Assembly (NCBI GenBank): GCA_016932965.1
Contig: JAFGBW010000175.1
Span: 1-7,022 of the forward strand
Source of the DNA: Candidatus Auribacterota bacterium
Lineage (GTDB): Bacteria > Auribacterota > JAFGBW01
DNA: 7,022 nt
Direction: 5' to 3'
Numbering within the stretch: the first letter of the stretch is position 1; the number at the start of each line of letters is the position of its first letter. The translations under genes were made by a program, and so were the position numbers. Shown piece by piece: positions 1 through 7,022 of the stretch. The notes beneath the pieces were generated by a model. That model searched no databases and was not told the DNA's origin. It worked only from the letters and a program-made list of their open reading frames with translations.

Positions 1-1398
1 AAGATCAAACTCCATGATTTTTTCCCATTCCTTGATGGATTTCTCAAATTCATTTTCGTTGAAATAAATCTCGGCCTGCTCCCGGATGAATACAATCTGC
101 TTTTGGACCTGCCTCTCTTTTTCCTGCTTTTCGGCTTCTTTTATCCTATCAGCCTCTTCCCTTTTATTCTTTTCCTCCAGCTTGGCTCTGGCTTTTTCCA
201 GCTCAACTAATATAGCCGGATTGGACGGGTCCATCGCATAACACTTCTCCAAAATGGTCACAGCCTGAAGGTAGTCCCCCTGGGAAAGAAATTTCAGTGC
301 TGATTCAAAAAAATCCCGGACCTCTGCCTCGCGTTTCTGTTTTGCCTCCCACTCCATTTCTCTTTTTTTAACATTCCATTCCCTTTCCTTCTGCAAATCC
401 AGACGCTTTTGTTCTTCCTCCGCCAAAAGCCGTTCCTCCACTCTTTTCATGTATAATTCCAGCTCTTCGTAATTCGGATTCAGCTTCATGACAACCGTAA
501 AACATCCCACCGCCTGCTGATACTGTCCTGTCATGAAATACTGGATGCCCATGACATAATTATCCCTGATTTGAAACTCTCTGTCTTCCAGTTCCTTTTT
601 TTCCCGTTCTGATTTTGATTTTTCCTCTTTTTCAGCCTGCATCATGGCATCATGAATACATTTGATCTCTCGGAGAATCTCTTCCCGGTGAGGATCCAAT
701 ATAAGAATCTGTTCCAGATAGGACACAGCCTTTGACTGATCCTTATTATTCAGGCAATCCTGAGCTTTCAACTGCCATTCGCGGATCTTCCTCAATTTCT
801 CTTCGCCTTCGGCCCTGGCTTTTTCGAGGACTTTTTTCTTTTCCCTGAACTGATTTTCAGCCTTGCTTAGTGTCTCCTGGACTTCCTTATTATCCGGCAT
901 CAGCAGAAGTGCCTTTTCAAGAAATCCAATGGCCTGTTCATATTCTTCCATTCTCAAATGCGTATTCGCAGTCACCATCCATTCATGCAAAAGCCGTTTT
1001 TTTTCCTCGCTCTCCTTTTTTGCCTTGTTTAAGATTTCATTGATCTCGCGGATGCGTTGCTCGCATTCTTCGGCGTATTTCAATGCCTCAGGCTGCTTTC
1101 CGCCCAAAGACACGGCTGACTGGAATTCCTCCAAAGCGCGTTCAAACTGTCCTTCCCGGTAAAAACGCTTGCCGGATTCCAAAAGATCCTGCACCTCCCT
1201 CGCCCGTTTTTTAGCCTCCTGTTCTTTCTGGAACCGCTCGTTTTCCTTCTGTTTCATCAGTGTCTTGATCTTCTGAATATGATAGATAGCCCGGACATTT
1301 TTCGGCTCCAAAGAGAGGACCTCCAGATACAACTCGATGGCCTCTTCCAACAGTCCCCCCTTCTCCTTTGTCTCACCGGAGTCGAACAACTCCTCCAT
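1..1398 (-). repeat. TPR-plus-linker repeat array of the second TPR gene (at least 7 units)
   Basis: The first four anchors (residues 94, 162, 230, 298) are spaced 68, 68 and 68 residues apart, a 204-nt period. Later spacings are 72, 83 and 75. Each unit is one TPR plus a charged linker. The nucleotide copies are diverged, so this is an old protein-level repeat rather than a recent DNA tandem array. Positions were counted by hand from the translation. Confidence 0.85.
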
Positions 1399-1620
1399 AC
1401 GGGATTTCTTTCTTTCTTCCTCTTCTCGAGTGGCCTTGATTTCGGATTCTAAAAAAGACAATTTTGTCTTTGTTTCCATCAAATCCGAATACGTCTCAGA
1501 AAACTGTTTCTCGAGATTCCGCAATTCCTCGAATTCCTTGAGATTTCTCGCGTATTTCTCTACATCCTTCTCATCCAGACTGAAGGACACGGTCCCTTGT
1601 GTCTTTAAAATCTCATCCAT
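1..1620 (-). CDS. TPR / charged coiled-coil repeat protein, second copy (C-terminus beyond the left edge)
   Basis: The reading frame is open for 540 codons from the ATG at 1620 to the window edge, with no stop, so the C-terminus is missing. Residues 1-70 form a charged, probably helical lead-in starting MDEILKTQG. At least seven TPRs follow. Taking the conserved small residue of TPR position 20 as anchor, they sit at residues 94, 162, 230, 298, 370, 453 and 528. Unit 5 shows the classical signature: G358 (position 8), Y361 (11), A370 (20), F374 (24) and P382 (32). Between TPRs lie linkers rich in Glu, Lys, Arg and Gln that should form long helices. No signal peptide or membrane segment is seen, so it is probably cytoplasmic. 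It is a paralogue of the gene just upstream, overlapping it by 8 nt (ATGGATGA), which suggests coupled translation. TPRs bind proteins; the partner here is unknown. The repeat type is clear; the cellular role is not. Confidence 0.9.
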   Translation of the reverse strand, partial: MDEILKTQGTVSFSLDEKDVEKYARNLKEFEELRNLEKQFSETYSDLMETKTKLSFLESEIKATREEEERKKSRMEELFDSGETKEKGGLLEEAIELYLEVLSLEPKNVRAIYHIQKIKTLMKQKENERFQKEQEAKKRAREVQDLLESGKRFYREGQFERALEEFQSAVSLGGKQPEALKYAEECEQRIREINEILNKAKKESEEKKRLLHEWMVTANTHLRMEEYEQAIGFLEKALLLMPDNKEVQETLSKAENQFREKKKVLEKARAEGEEKLRKIREWQLKAQDCLNNKDQSKAVSYLEQILILDPHREEILREIKCIHDAMMQAEKEEKSKSEREKKELEDREFQIRDNYVMGIQYFMTGQYQQAVGCFTVVMKLNPNYEELELYMKRVEERLLAEEEQKRLDLQKEREWNVKKREMEWEAKQKREAEVRDFFESALKFLSQGDYLQAVTILEKCYAMDPSNPAILVELEKARAKLEEKNKREEADRIKEAEKQEKERQVQKQIVFIREQAEIYFNENEFEKSIKEWEKIMEFDL

Positions 1621-4600
1621 TGTTTTCGGTTCCTCTTTCCTCGGCCGTATTCCTGGAAATGCCCAATTCCCTGATTTTATCTTCAGCATTTAATATACCG
1701 TTTTTTATTTCAACATTGTCCGGATCCATGATCAGGGCTTTCTCAAGAATCTCGATCATCTTCTCATACTGCCCGTCGTTAAAATATCGGTTGGCCATAA
1801 AAATCAAACGTTCAATGTTTTTTCTCTCTTCTTCCTTCTCTTTTCTTTCCTTCTCATTCTTATCCCGCTTTTCCTGGAGAAGGCCCTCTGCCTTCTCCAA
1901 TTCTTTCATCAGGCGTGAATCCGATCCGAATATCACCATGGCCCTTTCCCAGACCTGGACGGCTTTTTCCACCTCATTATTCCGGAGCAGCATGCGTCCC
2001 TCCAAGACAGCCTGATTGATCTGCCTTTCCTTTTGATCCTTCATCTCGTTTATCTGAATGGCTTCAATTTCTTTTTCCTTGATTCTGATTTTTGCGCGTC
2101 TGATCTCATCTTTGATTAGCGGATTTGAAGGCTGGATAAATTCGGCCTTTTCCCATTCCTCGATGGCCCGCTCATAATCGTTTTTCTGAAAATATTCCAG
2201 CCCGATCTTGTAGATAGTCCGTATCTCCTCCATCTGCTTCTGCTTCTTCATCTCCTGCTTTTCTTTTTCAGCCCGGAGTTCCTCTTCCCTGAATCTGGCC
2301 CTTTCCTCCCTCAATGCGTCCTCACGCTTTTTCTCCTCAATGATGCGGTCACGCAGTTCTTTGACGGGTTTATTCTCCGAATCATAAAAAAGCACTTCCT
2401 GGCATAAACTCAATGCTTCTGCATAAGACCCTGAAGCGTATAATTTGGCCGACAAGGCGGCCATGTCTTTTATGCGGTCCTTTAAAGCCACTTTATCTGC
2501 CATATCTCTTTCAATCTTTTGCCTCAGATGCCTTTTTAATTCCAAAATGGCCTTATGCGCACCCTCATGCTTGTAGTCCAATTCCAGGATCTTTTCGTAA
2601 ATCAGAATAGCTTTATCATAATCCCCTGCGTAAAAAAGCCTCTCCCCTTCCCACAACAAACGGTTGACTTCCTTGTTTTCTCTTTCCTGACGCTCTTTTG
2701 CTTCCAGGATATTCTGATTTTCCCTGCGCTTTTCACTGTCAATCTGCTGGATATAGTCCACGATTTCCTTGTTTTCCGGATCCAGTTCCAGTGCCCGGTA
2801 AAAATAATCCTGCGCCTCTTTCCAAAGCCCGCGTTTCATTTCAATATGGCCTTTGACCAGAAGTTCCTGAATGCTCATCCTGTTCTTTGCCGCCCGTTCC
2901 TCCTGTTCCCTCATTTCCCGGGAACGTTCCTCTATCCGATAGGATTCCATGAGATCCTTCAAAGATCCGATCTCTTTTAGAATCAATTCATTTCCCGGGA
3001 ACAACAACGCGGCCTTTTCCCCTTCCGCGATAGCCTCTTCAAAATGATTCTCCCTGATCAGCTGGCTGACACGGATCTTCAAACGCTGATAATGATCCTG
3101 AAATTCCTCCTTCAGCCGGGAATCCCTTTCTTTCTTTGATTCGTTCTCATTGAATTTTTGAAAGGTGCGTATCTTGAAATTGGATGCGTCCTCATCGGCA
3201 GGGTTATCATAACCCGCATCCTTGAAATACAGATACGCTTCCCCGTATTCTCCCAGCTGATAATATTGAAGCCCCTTTTTTAAATTGGAAATAAAAGCCT
3301 CTCTTCTCGCAATCTCACATTTATCCTCTTGCTCTTTTACTTTTTTAAACTGCTCTTCATGATCCACCAGCCTGACTTTCAAATCCTTGTCCAGCGCCCC
3401 TTGATGTTTGAGATCTTCCAGAAGAAGGATCGCTTCTTTTACATCTTTTTTTAGGAGGGCCTTTCTGAAGGCGCATTCCGTCTCCGCGATCTTATTTTTC
3501 AGGGCGTCCTTCTCCCTTAAGATTTCCTGTTCCTTGCTGCGCTCCTCCTCCTCTCTTTTAAGGAGACAAGACAATTCTTGGGCCTTTTCCTTCAATTCCT
3601 CTTTTTCTGGATAGTCCACCATGAGCCGGCGGAGTTTATAAAGCGCGTCCAAATTCCTGTTCCCCTTGGAAAGAGCTTCGGATTCATGCAGTCTTTCCAC
3701 ATAGGAACGCTCCCTTTCCTTTTGACTTTCAGCCATGTTTTCCTGTTTCTTCTGGATATCTAAAACGTCTTTTTCAGTCTTTTGACGATACAAGAGTTCC
3801 AGTTCGCGGATTTTTTCCATGGTTTCCGCGTAAACGGAGTCCGGACAATCAACCAGTATCTCTTCCAGAGCTTCAATAGCCTGAAAATAATCCCCGTTTC
3901 TGGAAAGTCTCATGGCTTTCAATTGAATCTCCCGCAAACGTTTTTTCTGTTCCTCTTCCCTGCGTGCATTGACTTCAGCTTCCTCGGAAAGCTTCTCCTG
4001 ACAGGTTTTAAGACCTTCAAGAGCGACCGAATTTTCAGGGTCCAGCAACAGGCAATTCTCATATTGTTCAACAGCTTTTGTGTATTCCGCCTTAAAAAGA
4101 TAATGCCTCCCCAAACTGATCCCTTTTATGACTTCCTTCTTTTTTCGTTCCTGCTCCTGGTGTTTCTGCTGATTCTGAATGTCTTTATCTTTTAAACGGC
4201 TCTCGCATTCAGCAAGAAGGCGGCAGGTCTCCGCGTCAGAGCCGTAAACTCTCATGGTCTCCTCGAGTATTTCTACCGCATCCGAGTCTTTCCCTTCACG
4301 GATCTTTTTCCTTGCAAGATTGTAGTATTCGATTCTCTCTCGCTCTTTTTTTGAATAAATCTCCTTTTCCCTGATCTTTCCTTCTGAGAGCTCCGAGAGT
4401 TTCTTTTCAGCTGTCTCGATACCGGATAAGGCAATGCTGTTGTTCTCTTCCAATATGAGGACGGATTCCCATTCGGAAATGGCCTGCTCATAATGACCGT
4501 TTCTGAAATAAGAGCGTGCTTTGATCAAGCGCTCCGTCACTTCCTTGCGTTTTTGCGCCAGCTTCTCTTTTTCCTCCTCTTTAGCCTCTAATATTTTCTG

Positions 4601-4771
4601 TGCCAGCGTTTCGGCCAGTGTTTTTCGTTTTTCCTCCAGTTCCTTTAAAAAAGCCTGGGAATGATCGATCTTATCCCTTATCTTTTCTTTTTCCTGGGAA
4701 AGCGTCTTCAGATCCTCCCTCATTTCCGGCATTTTTTCACCTTCACCCTGTTTCATGAAATCATTCATCAT
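1613..4771 (-). CDS. Large TPR / charged coiled-coil repeat protein, 14 TPR units
   Basis: The product has 1052 residues and no visible signal peptide or membrane segment. Residues 1-77 are a Lys/Glu-rich helical lead-in. Fourteen TPRs follow, with position-20 anchors at residues 97, 165, 233, 298, 376, 447, 512, 580, 653, 721, 786, 869, 937 and 1005. Unit 12 fits the TPR consensus closely: G857, Y860, A869, W873 in place of F24, A876 and P881. Linkers between TPRs are very rich in Glu, Lys, Arg and Gln and should form long helices or coiled coils. Units 5 and 6 are the most diverged, and unit 7 is rich in Tyr. The protein ends about 30 residues after the last TPR. It starts 3 nt after the STAS gene, behind the strongest ribosome binding site in the window; an ATG at codon 2 is an alternative start. 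TPR proteins are docking scaffolds, and operon context suggests a link with the partner-switch proteins. That link is inferred. Confidence 0.93.
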   Translation of the reverse strand: MMNDFMKQGEGEKMPEMREDLKTLSQEKEKIRDKIDHSQAFLKELEEKRKTLAETLAQKILEAKEEEKEKLAQKRKEVTERLIKARSYFRNGHYEQAISEWESVLILEENNSIALSGIETAEKKLSELSEGKIREKEIYSKKERERIEYYNLARKKIREGKDSDAVEILEETMRVYGSDAETCRLLAECESRLKDKDIQNQQKHQEQERKKKEVIKGISLGRHYLFKAEYTKAVEQYENCLLLDPENSVALEGLKTCQEKLSEEAEVNARREEEQKKRLREIQLKAMRLSRNGDYFQAIEALEEILVDCPDSVYAETMEKIRELELLYRQKTEKDVLDIQKKQENMAESQKERERSYVERLHESEALSKGNRNLDALYKLRRLMVDYPEKEELKEKAQELSCLLKREEEERSKEQEILREKDALKNKIAETECAFRKALLKKDVKEAILLLEDLKHQGALDKDLKVRLVDHEEQFKKVKEQEDKCEIARREAFISNLKKGLQYYQLGEYGEAYLYFKDAGYDNPADEDASNFKIRTFQKFNENESKKERDSRLKEEFQDHYQRLKIRVSQLIRENHFEEAIAEGEKAALLFPGNELILKEIGSLKDLMESYRIEERSREMREQEERAAKNRMSIQELLVKGHIEMKRGLWKEAQDYFYRALELDPENKEIVDYIQQIDSEKRRENQNILEAKERQERENKEVNRLLWEGERLFYAGDYDKAILIYEKILELDYKHEGAHKAILELKRHLRQKIERDMADKVALKDRIKDMAALSAKLYASGSYAEALSLCQEVLFYDSENKPVKELRDRIIEEKKREDALREERARFREEELRAEKEKQEMKKQKQMEEIRTIYKIGLEYFQKNDYERAIEEWEKAEFIQPSNPLIKDEIRRAKIRIKEKEIEAIQINEMKDQKERQINQAVLEGRMLLRNNEVEKAVQVWERAMVIFGSDSRLMKELEKAEGLLQEKRDKNEKERKEKEEERKNIERLIFMANRYFNDGQYEKMIEILEKALIMDPDNVEIKNGILNAEDKIRELGISRNTAEERGTENNG
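1631..1636 (-). promoter_or_regulatory. Probable ribosome binding site of the second TPR gene
   Basis: On the coding strand this reads AGAGGA, 10 nt before the ATG at 1620. It lies inside the end of the upstream TPR gene. The spacing is a little long, but it supports the ATG at 1620 over an in-frame ATG at 1689, whose extra N-terminal residues do not look like the rest of the protein. Confidence 0.5.
1715..4540 (-). repeat. TPR-plus-linker repeat array of the first TPR gene (14 units, modal period 68 residues)
   Basis: Spacings between consecutive TPR position-20 anchors are 68, 68, 65, 78, 71, 65, 68, 73, 68, 65, 83, 68 and 68 residues. The modal unit of 68 equals two TPR lengths, but only one half of each unit carries the TPR signature. 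The other half is charged and low in hydrophobic residues. The array covers residues 78 to 1019. Confidence 0.85.
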
Positions 4772-4774
4772 GAC

Positions 4775-5167
4775 TTATGCCTCCCTCCACGACTGCCATA
4801 ATAAATCCTTCTCCAAATCCATAACCGTGTTGGGCATCTCCATGAGGGCCTCTGGCGGCGGGAATGTGTAAATATCCACTATTTTATCCAAAAATCCCAT
4901 CTGTAGGACCGGCATCAATCCTTTTTCAGCCAGAAGCGAAGGATTCCATCCTTTTTCTCTGAGGGAAAAAAGCATCTCCTTCAGCCAGACCAAACCACAG
5001 CTGGAAATATAAAGTTGACGCCGCAAATCAATCCATATCCCGGCTTCTCTTTGAGGAGGCCGAAGCAGCGTCTCATCCGTTGTGATGGGTTCTTTCGAAA
5101 CCCCAAAAATCATTTCCGTTTCATCCGGAAAAATCCGTATCCGTTTCTCTTTGCATTCTACTTTCAT
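4775..5167 (-). CDS. STAS-domain protein, SpoIIAA/RsbV/HsbA-like anti-sigma-antagonist type, with Cys at the phospho-serine position
   Basis: The product has 130 residues, close to a single STAS domain. The recognisable part starts at residue 44: a strand (IWIDLRRQLYI), the turn S55-S56-C57-G58-L59, a helix (residues 60-72), a strand (NPSLLA) and a helix leading to GFLDKIVDIY. This follows the family pattern 'vvlDLs…iDSSGLgvL…G…L…gLd…iy'. In SpoIIAA the motif is D-S-S-G, and the second Ser is phosphorylated by the partner kinase; here that position reads Cys57, and the Asp is Ser55. STAS proteins of this class bind RsbW-like kinases and free their targets. The ATG lies in an ATGA overlap with the stop of the upstream regulator, which carries a kinase-like domain, so the two are probably made together and bind each other. 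The start has only a weak ribosome site, consistent with coupling. The first 40 residues match the family poorly. Family assignment is by pattern, not by search. Confidence 0.75.
   Translation of the reverse strand: MKVECKEKRIRIFPDETEMIFGVSKEPITTDETLLRPPQREAGIWIDLRRQLYISSCGLVWLKEMLFSLREKGWNPSLLAEKGLMPVLQMGFLDKIVDIYTFPPPEALMEMPNTVMDLEKDLLWQSWREA
4780..4788 (-). promoter_or_regulatory. Strong Shine-Dalgarno of the large TPR gene, inside the end of the STAS gene
   Basis: The coding strand reads GGAGGGAGG, 8 nt before the ATG at 4771. It falls in the last codons of the STAS gene (Trp127, Arg128, Glu129). It is the best match to the anti-Shine-Dalgarno sequence among the gene starts here, so the scaffold may be made in larger amounts than the STAS protein. 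Confidence 0.75.
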
Positions 5168-6537
5168 GACACAGATTCCAATATCAGCAGATTGTTTTCA
5201 TTTTTTAAATCCACCAATTTCCTGATGAACCGGGCACCCCTGGGGACAGAGAGGAACTCATCATTCTTATCGGCTTCTTCGTCCTCTTCCTTGACAATAG
5301 AACCGATATTTGCGCCCGAAACGCATAACCGGAAAGCCTTGTCTGAAACAAACCTGACATCGATTGAAAAGGCTTTCTCAAATCGTTTATCTTTTATAAG
5401 AACGAAAAGTTCCGCTAACGCGCTCAAAAACCGGACAATCAATTTTCTTGGAATTTGTTCCATTTCAAGTGTTTCCCTGAAAAACTGAAAACATTCCCTG
5501 ACATCCAAGGAAGCCCATTCTGTTTCATAGACATATGAGGTTGTTTTATCCGGCAGAAAGTAAACAATCAGAATAGGATCTTCCAGGGAAAGCAATTGAT
5601 AGTGATGCGCCAATACCGACAGCCATTGCTTTGAAAAATGGGGCCATCCAAGCTTTTTCCTTTTTAAAGTTTCCTTTGATATCTCACTCAAAGCGTCTCT
5701 TTGTTGAAACCCCTTCTCACCCCCGTTAAAAAGTAAAATGTCATTTCTGGAAAAAGAGAAATTCCCTTCTCCATGGCTCCATATCCGCGGGGAAATCCCT
5801 TGTTTTTCCTCTGTCCCTGGTATAACAAGAAACGACACAGGGCCGAAAACACTCCATTGAACCTCCTCACGAACCGAATCCATCTCCATGAGAATAAAAG
5901 AACAATCCGTGTTTGTCCCCATGGCATCCCGCATGAAAGAAACCATTTCTTTGAAAGGGGCGGCTTTCTGACAAAGAGCCTGAAATGCCCCGCGGATAAA
6001 CCCTTGAGCCTCTTTGTCCGCCTGAAACACATAACAAAAAAAGTGACGTTTTCCCGTTGTCTGATGGAAAACCTTCCAGTTTTTTTCCGGATCCCTATAG
6101 TAATGAACCAGATGGAAATCATCCCCGGTTTCACGGATCAGGTAAAAGGATCTCTCCCCTTTTTTTATTCCTGCTGCAGGGAGCGGTGCGAGTTCCTTTA
6201 TACGGGAAAGAAGTGCCGTATTGTCAAAAGGTTTCTGAAAAATATCATGGACACCAAGCCTCAATGCTTCCATCACATCCTCCAGATTCAAATAGGCGGA
6301 AATGATGACGCTTTTTGCAGGATTTTTCTCCTCACGAAGTTTCCGAATCAGTTCCAGTCCCGACATGCCGGGCATTTTCAGGTCTGTAATGATGAAATCA
6401 AAGCTCTTCTCATGAATGCGTGTCAAAGCTTCTGATGCGGTTCGCGACGTTTCAACGGCAAACCCCTCTGCTGAAAAGGCTCTTTTCAGGCCATTCACGA
6501 TAGATTCCTGATCATCTATCACTAATACACGAGGCAT
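5164..6537 (-). CDS. Response regulator: receiver + diverged SpoIIE/RsbU-type PP2C + diverged RsbW-like GHKL domain
   Basis: The product has 457 residues and should be cytoplasmic. Residues 1-118 are a CheY-like receiver with all key positions: D8/D9, phospho-acceptor D52 in TDLKMPG, S80, and K102 in QKPF. Residues about 128-327 resemble a SpoIIE-type PP2C phosphatase: GDDF (138-141) for GGDF, ADKEAQG (173-179) for GDVSGHG, WSVFGPVSFLVIPG for the 'aGHpPplll' strand, DILLFNGG (266-273) for 'D.LllYTDG', and LED (318-320) for the final DD. D140 and D174 may still bind metal, but the TDG Asp is Gly272. Residues about 340-455 resemble an RsbW-type kinase: LAELFVL (374-380) is the N box with Leu380 for Asn, SGANIGS (407-413) a broken G1 box, and PRGARFIRKLVD (432-443) the G2 box. 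HsbR and CrsR have the same domain order, and RssB shows that a receiver can control an inactive PP2C. An AAGGA site precedes the ATG. The receiver is certain; the other two domains are probable. Confidence 0.88.
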   Translation of the reverse strand: MPRVLVIDDQESIVNGLKRAFSAEGFAVETSRTASEALTRIHEKSFDFIITDLKMPGMSGLELIRKLREEKNPAKSVIISAYLNLEDVMEALRLGVHDIFQKPFDNTALLSRIKELAPLPAAGIKKGERSFYLIRETGDDFHLVHYYRDPEKNWKVFHQTTGKRHFFCYVFQADKEAQGFIRGAFQALCQKAAPFKEMVSFMRDAMGTNTDCSFILMEMDSVREEVQWSVFGPVSFLVIPGTEEKQGISPRIWSHGEGNFSFSRNDILLFNGGEKGFQQRDALSEISKETLKRKKLGWPHFSKQWLSVLAHHYQLLSLEDPILIVYFLPDKTTSYVYETEWASLDVRECFQFFRETLEMEQIPRKLIVRFLSALAELFVLIKDKRFEKAFSIDVRFVSDKAFRLCVSGANIGSIVKEEDEEADKNDEFLSVPRGARFIRKLVDLKNENNLLILESVS

Positions 6538-6625: not shown

Positions 6626-7022
6626 TCATACTTCCAAATCTTCTTCAAATGCTTCATCCGTCGTATCTGCAGGCTGATTCATCTCAGACATCGCCTGAGA
6701 AACTCTATTATTTTCCTCTTGATCCGACATAACGGGCTTAGGCTGAGAACTCACCCCCTGCATCATCATCTCAATATAACGGGGAATCCTGATAACCATG
6801 CCGGGATAAATGAGATCCTGGTTCAAAATTTTGGACTGATTTTCATGATATATTTCCATCCACTTATATCCATTTCCATAAATATTTTCCTTGGCAGCGA
6901 TCTTCCATAGACTGTCCCCCTTTGCTACCTCATAGTACGCTGGATAATGCGAATCAAATATCGCCTTTTTTGAAAGCAAATCCACTTTCAATTGGTTGAG
7001 ATCATCCTCTGCCTTTAATGCC
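6626..7022 (-). CDS. LysM-domain protein, C-terminal part (start beyond the right edge)
   Basis: The frame stays open to the window edge; 131 residues are visible before the stop. A TTG at 6991 could be called as a start, but the frame continues upstream with helical sequence (ALKAEDDLNQL), so the protein very probably begins outside the window. Visible residues 1-20 look like the end of a coiled coil. Residues 29-81 form one LysM domain: YYEVAKGDSLWKIA, then YGNGYKWMEIYHENQ, then DLIYPGMVIRIPR. This is the complete pattern of a peptidoglycan-binding LysM, including the D-x-I-Y-P-G turn. A tail of about 50 residues follows, with no clear fold and an acidic end (EAFEEDLEV). LysM domains bind N-acetylglucosamine polymers and usually act outside the cytoplasm; any signal peptide or lipobox would be in the missing N-terminus. 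It lies 88 nt upstream of the regulator on the same strand, so operon membership is likely but not proven. Confidence 0.85.
   Translation of the reverse strand, partial: ALKAEDDLNQLKVDLLSKKAIFDSHYPAYYEVAKGDSLWKIAAKENIYGNGYKWMEIYHENQSKILNQDLIYPGMVIRIPRYIEMMMQGVSSQPKPVMSDQEENNRVSQAMSEMNQPADTTDEAFEEDLEV

Follow-up and report, generated by a model that had tools for sequence, protein, structure and literature searches.

Partner switching is normally defined by the reversible serine/threonine phosphorylation of a STAS protein, and the described systems closest to the locus studied here are HsbR of Pseudomonas aeruginosa and CrsR of Shewanella oneidensis, in which a receiver is followed by a PP2C domain and a GHKL kinase/anti-sigma domain (PMC6482189). 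Both act on a single STAS partner (HsbR/HsbA, CrsR/CrsA), and in the SypE/SypA pair of Vibrio fischeri one multidomain regulator likewise acts on a single STAS protein, with SypE as an active serine kinase and Ser56 of SypA as its target. Among further comparable systems, phosphorylation of the PhyR receiver triggers a partner switch with NepR (PMC5964349, PMC4814048), and in Escherichia coli RssB the receiver drives an inactive PP2C fold (PMC7226468, PMC12143880).

The DNA analysed here (the window) is a complete contig of 7022 bases from the draft genome of a Candidatus Auribacterota bacterium (3.1 Mb, 93% complete). On its minus strand it carries, in this order, genes for a LysM protein, a receiver regulator, a STAS-like protein and two TPR proteins. 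The regulator gene (5164-6537, 457 aa) and the STAS-like gene (4775-5167, 130 aa) overlap by 4 nucleotides, and the features of the locus are as follows.

6626..7021, minus strand: LysM protein (PF01476), truncated at the contig end, whose gene precedes the regulator in the operon; its identity to the LysM proteins encoded at the same place in loci L056-L058 is 35-46%.
6184..6537, minus strand: receiver domain, regulator residues 1-118 (PF00072, 94.2 bits); codon of D52 at 6382-6384.
5527..6183, minus strand: putative pseudo-PP2C region, about residues 119-337, assigned by synteny with the SpoIIE-type PP2C of L056-L058 and a moderate match of a three-member profile; metal Asp motifs missing.
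5164..5526, minus strand: putative pseudo-GHKL (RsbW-like) region, about residues 338-457 plus the stop codon, assigned by the match of the C-terminal half of the same profile to the family kinase profile.
4775..5167, minus strand: STAS-like partner, 130 aa, assigned by a profile match to a five-member STAS alignment that includes this protein itself and by alignment with canonical relatives, with the register set by Ser56 of SypA; codon of its own Ser56 at 5000-5002.
4796..4825, minus strand: C-terminal tail of the STAS protein, residues 115-124 (VMDLEKDLLW), kept in 6/6 STAS proteins at the locus.
1613..4771, minus strand: first TPR/coiled-coil protein, 1052 aa (Pfam TPR families), candidate output.
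1..1689, minus strand: second TPR/coiled-coil protein (Pfam TPR families), cut by the contig end, in the place of the syntenic second TPR gene.

Both TPR/coiled-coil proteins (1-4771, minus strand) are very large and contain many repeats. Read from its first ATG, the second TPR frame shares 77 bases with the first TPR gene (1613-1689, minus strand), and a start at 1620 (MDEILKTQ) is likelier.

The receiver of the window regulator is a normal PF00072 domain with its phospho-acceptor site, as in the HsbR/CrsR type, and D8, D9, D52, S80 and K102 are all where the initial annotation had placed them. The rest of the regulator departs from HsbR and CrsR. A central SpoIIE-type PP2C with metal-binding Asp residues is not recognized by Pfam, and a search of residues 119-457 for [ST]DG, G[GA]D, GD[VIAG], DxGxG and DD.[TV] found none of these motifs. 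Gly272 (codon 5722-5724) stands at the place of the TDG Asp, within ILLFNGGEKG, and Leu380 (codon 5398-5400) at the place of the N-box Asn, both as first described. Asn is entirely absent from residues 330-409, which means that no register restores either the metal-Asp motifs or the N-box Asn, and the C-terminal region lacks both hallmarks of an RsbW-type GHKL kinase, the N-box Asn and the DxGxG box. The proposal that the phosphatase and kinase sites are eroded thus held, including against the objection that the catalytic Asp and Asn might sit in another register. The surroundings of the pair also differ from those of HsbR/CrsR: TPR genes follow it, neither a sigma factor gene nor a protease gene was found in the locus (gene list and Pfam), and there is no anti-sigma gene nearby.

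The relatives of this locus within the phylum are informative about its origin. Weak STAS matches were found in several genomes, in four of which they lie directly downstream of receiver regulators. Three of these genomes (G021, G014 and G007) belong to the Auribacter family, which is not that of the window, and carry LysM, receiver-PP2C-GHKL, STAS, TPR and TPR genes in this order, with histidine kinase and NtrC genes around the operon. Pfam detects full SpoIIE, HATPase_c_2 and STAS domains in them, and they match HsbR/HsbA and CrsR/CrsA domain for domain. Their TPR proteins are smaller than those of the window, and the first has an apparent membrane segment. The fourth genome (G015, locus L055, 5751-7636) has a similar gene order, with no LysM gene detected, and a separate pattern of erosion: its PP2C cannot be detected by Pfam, its GHKL kinase is intact, and its STAS protein has Gly at the phospho-site. 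A search with LysM also brought up the operon in G001 and G002, the two genomes (two genera) from the window's own order, where the regulators have 450 and 453 aa and Pfam finds only the receiver. The contig of G002 ends ahead of its STAS gene. A TPR gene stands at the corresponding place in G001, G021, G014, G007 and G015, and the two TPR proteins of G001 are similarly giant (1710 and 796 aa). By sequence, one phylum therefore appears to hold three canonical, one half-eroded and three fully eroded members.

The alignment of close homologues that had been proposed found the regulator eroded in the same way in two further genera of this order, which rules out a sequencing error or a fresh pseudogene as the source of the erosion. 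The residues that survive at the PP2C and kinase sites vary among the three genera: by profile alignment, the TDG Asp (D263) and the second DFYD Asp persist in G001, with GDV and the kinase motifs gone, G002 retains only the second DFYD Asp, and the window has one Asp (D320) close to the last PP2C motif. A tree of receivers clusters the window with G001 and G002 (support 81/91) and does not settle its deeper link to the canonical receivers; the best matches to the window receiver among the receivers fetched are those of all six syntenic regulators.

That the tail of the regulator is PP2C plus GHKL had been guessed from one sequence, and the direct searches gave no help. Outside the receiver, nothing useful was found for the tail or the STAS protein in Pfam, NCBIfam, PADLOC or PDB sequences, and as a protein query the window tail found only itself (59 relatives, all 44 phylum genomes, genome contigs and viral contigs). 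Single-sequence hhalign and hmmsearch comparisons of the window tail were also unconvincing; in one of them, 36/2000 shuffles scored as well. The identification gains its footing from synteny and from a profile of the tails of the window, G001 and G002 (the trio profile), which was compared with a profile of 16 PP2C-GHKL proteins and scored 34.9 over 246 colinear columns, whereas 300 column shuffles gave a mean of 14.5 (sd 2.3, maximum 20.5) and the reversed profile 14.3. The GHKL half of the trio profile alone scored 21.2 against the family kinase profile (0/120 shuffles as good), and GHKL descent of this half is well supported by the profile comparison. With the full-length trio alignment, the PP2C half scored above all shuffles in global mode and above all but 0-1/60 in local mode, and it fails the profile test when realigned alone or without the window sequence; together with its position in the syntenic operon, this argues with moderate strength for PP2C descent. 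AF2 run with three homologues, none from the same order, gave a mean pLDDT of 45 for the regulator (the receiver good, the tail not) and 40 for the STAS protein, a low confidence that is due to the inadequate alignment. Taken with the loss of motifs and the intact receiver, synteny and the trio profile support, at the level of sequence, the view that the window pair descends from an HsbR/CrsR-type receiver-PP2C-GHKL regulator and its STAS partner.

The replacement of the whole tail by an unrelated effector domain through fusion would explain why the window tail alone matches nothing significantly and why the PP2C half fails some profile tests, but none of the 300 shuffles comes close to the colinear match, the GHKL half is significant by itself, and the tail occupies the same place in the same operon, which leaves this explanation a slim chance. 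The chance that the tail has remained catalytic by using unusual residues in its active sites is very slim: D320 and the TDG Asp of G001 could speak for it, and pseudoenzyme calls from sequence can fail, but the window has no metal-Asp motif, no N-box Asn and no DxGxG box, and each of the three genera retains a different set of residues.

For the STAS protein, the comparison changed the initial picture. SpoIIAA and RsbV are phosphorylated at the same register position as Ser56 of SypA. The site in SypA is Ser56 of FLDSSGIG, not Ser57 (PMC10120452), and it stands directly after Asp and two residues before Gly. The initial annotation had read Cys57 as the phospho-serine position; Cys57 is indeed present, but this register is off by one, and the true site is Ser56 in YI-S55-S56-C57-G58-L. 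The supposed loss of the phospho-serine is therefore refuted, and the window keeps an adjacent STAS partner with the conserved Ser in register, as in HsbR/CrsR systems. The canonical relatives also have Ser there, reading FISSRGLG or FITSRGLG, so that the Asp preceding the phospho-site is already replaced in them. In G001 the site is Asp-Ser, and in G015 it is Gly (YVSGAGLG) with a Ser one residue earlier. The Pfam STAS model does not match the window protein, and the G001 protein is likewise without Pfam recognition. All six STAS proteins of the locus (window, L162, L055, L056, L057 and L058) share the C-terminal tail V...EK.LLW, with V115, E119, L123 and W124 invariant and with Glu-Arg in G015 and Met for the first Leu in G001 (EEKEMLWA) as variants; the STAS core is not so conserved. 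Conservation is higher in this tail than around the phospho-site, and the STAS matches found at other places in the phylum stop short of it.

The retained Ser56, together with the Asp-Ser of G001, counts against a purely phosphorylation-free switch as first proposed, and serine chemistry may persist with enzymes acting in trans. In the genome of the window, there is no SpoIIE-type PP2C over the cut-off (three weak matches are Stp1/PrpC-like by sequence), no RsbW-type kinase above the cut-off (all HATPase_c_2 matches fall below it, and the two inspected are histidine kinases) and no Pfam-level STAS protein, whereas G007, G014 and G021 each have six to nine of the latter over the cut-off. The lineage thus appears to have lost most of its partner-switching machinery while this locus stays, although such gene absences are not absolute in an assembly that is 93% complete. 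The same genome has about 70 receiver matches, about two dozen Hanks-type kinases and three Stp1-type PP2Cs.

Because of these kinases and phosphatases, Ser56 could be phosphorylated in trans, with Hanks-type kinases and Stp1-type PP2Cs replacing the cis enzymes and the tail serving as a receiver-controlled docking platform for the STAS protein. The Ser at the phospho-site in both the window and G001 would fit this, but the operon contains no such kinase or phosphatase gene, the STAS protein of G015 has Gly at the site, and Hanks-type kinases are not known to phosphorylate this serine in partner-switching modules; we consider this reading unlikely, though worth keeping in view. Decidedly unlikely is that the module merely decays under relaxed selection after partner switching was lost in the order, the receiver then persisting for some time or serving as a phosphate sink. 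The PP2C half, the weakest part of the tail, is only 21% identical between G001 and G002, near the shuffled-codon level, and the genome is otherwise without a partner-switching repertoire, as decay would predict. Against this, three genera have intact frames of nearly the same length (457, 450 and 453 aa), the genes keep their order and lie close together, the STAS tail is conserved, and the regulator tails of G001 and G002 (27% identical overall, with receivers 75% identical) differ at second codon positions by 0.38, compared with 0.50 for shuffled codons. Judged from these sequences, the regulator-STAS pair looks like a fast-evolving yet maintained one.

RssB was an apt precedent, since it combines a receiver with a PP2C fold without an active site and acts by protein binding (PMC7226468), and P. 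aeruginosa RssB is encoded next to an RsbV homologue (PMC12143880), just as the window regulator adjoins its STAS gene; the window regulator has the receiver, and synteny and the moderate profile match suggest a putative dead PP2C. RssB also lacks a GHKL domain and is an adaptor for sigma-S degradation, and the P. aeruginosa RssB keeps an active phosphatase. An adaptor role as in RssB, in which the regulator hands a target over for degradation and the STAS protein is a co-factor, would recall P. aeruginosa, where rssB is in an operon with the rsbV homologue rssC, which is needed for adaptor function (PMC12143880). We regard it as barely credible, because the locus has no sigma factor or protease gene, the RssB fold comes without the GHKL part, and the NCBIfam RssB models match the window regulator in the receiver only (68.5 bits against a cut-off of 329, and 67.5 against 700). 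PhyR/NepR has no PP2C/GHKL and no STAS protein. PhyR uses a sigma-like domain, and the window regulator gave no sigma-domain match in Pfam or NCBIfam.

The best explanation, which we hold tentatively and with slightly less than even confidence, is that the window pair descends from an HsbR/CrsR-type system, has lost its cis catalytic sites and now works across the order as a receiver-gated binding switch. The ancestral receiver, like those of the Auribacter-family relatives today, presumably acted on a PP2C phosphatase and an RsbW-type kinase, which would have reset the STAS protein by dephosphorylation and phosphorylation of its serine. In the order of the window, the recognizable catalytic sites would then have decayed while the receiver, the operon, the full-length regulator and the STAS tail were kept. 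A histidine kinase would phosphorylate D52, and this may alter the grip of the fused pseudo-PP2C/pseudo-GHKL tail on the STAS protein, which, free or bound, would engage the output, perhaps through its LLW tail or its core; the adjacent TPR scaffold proteins are the best candidates for this output. The module probably signals by direct binding, as far as its sequence indicates. A receiver-driven binding switch in which the STAS protein is clamped by the PP2C and GHKL pseudoenzymes, a TPR scaffold takes the place of a sigma factor as the output, and all three states of erosion are found in one phylum is possible, but we hold this fuller version with distinctly lower confidence.

If this is true, the combination of receiver, regulator and STAS protein without both enzyme sites would show which component the switch cannot do without and how a binding scaffold arises from a kinase/phosphatase pair, in parallel with RssB becoming a non-catalytic adaptor. 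The eroded order and the intact relatives in another family of the phylum would thus form a natural series, which can be tested protein by protein.
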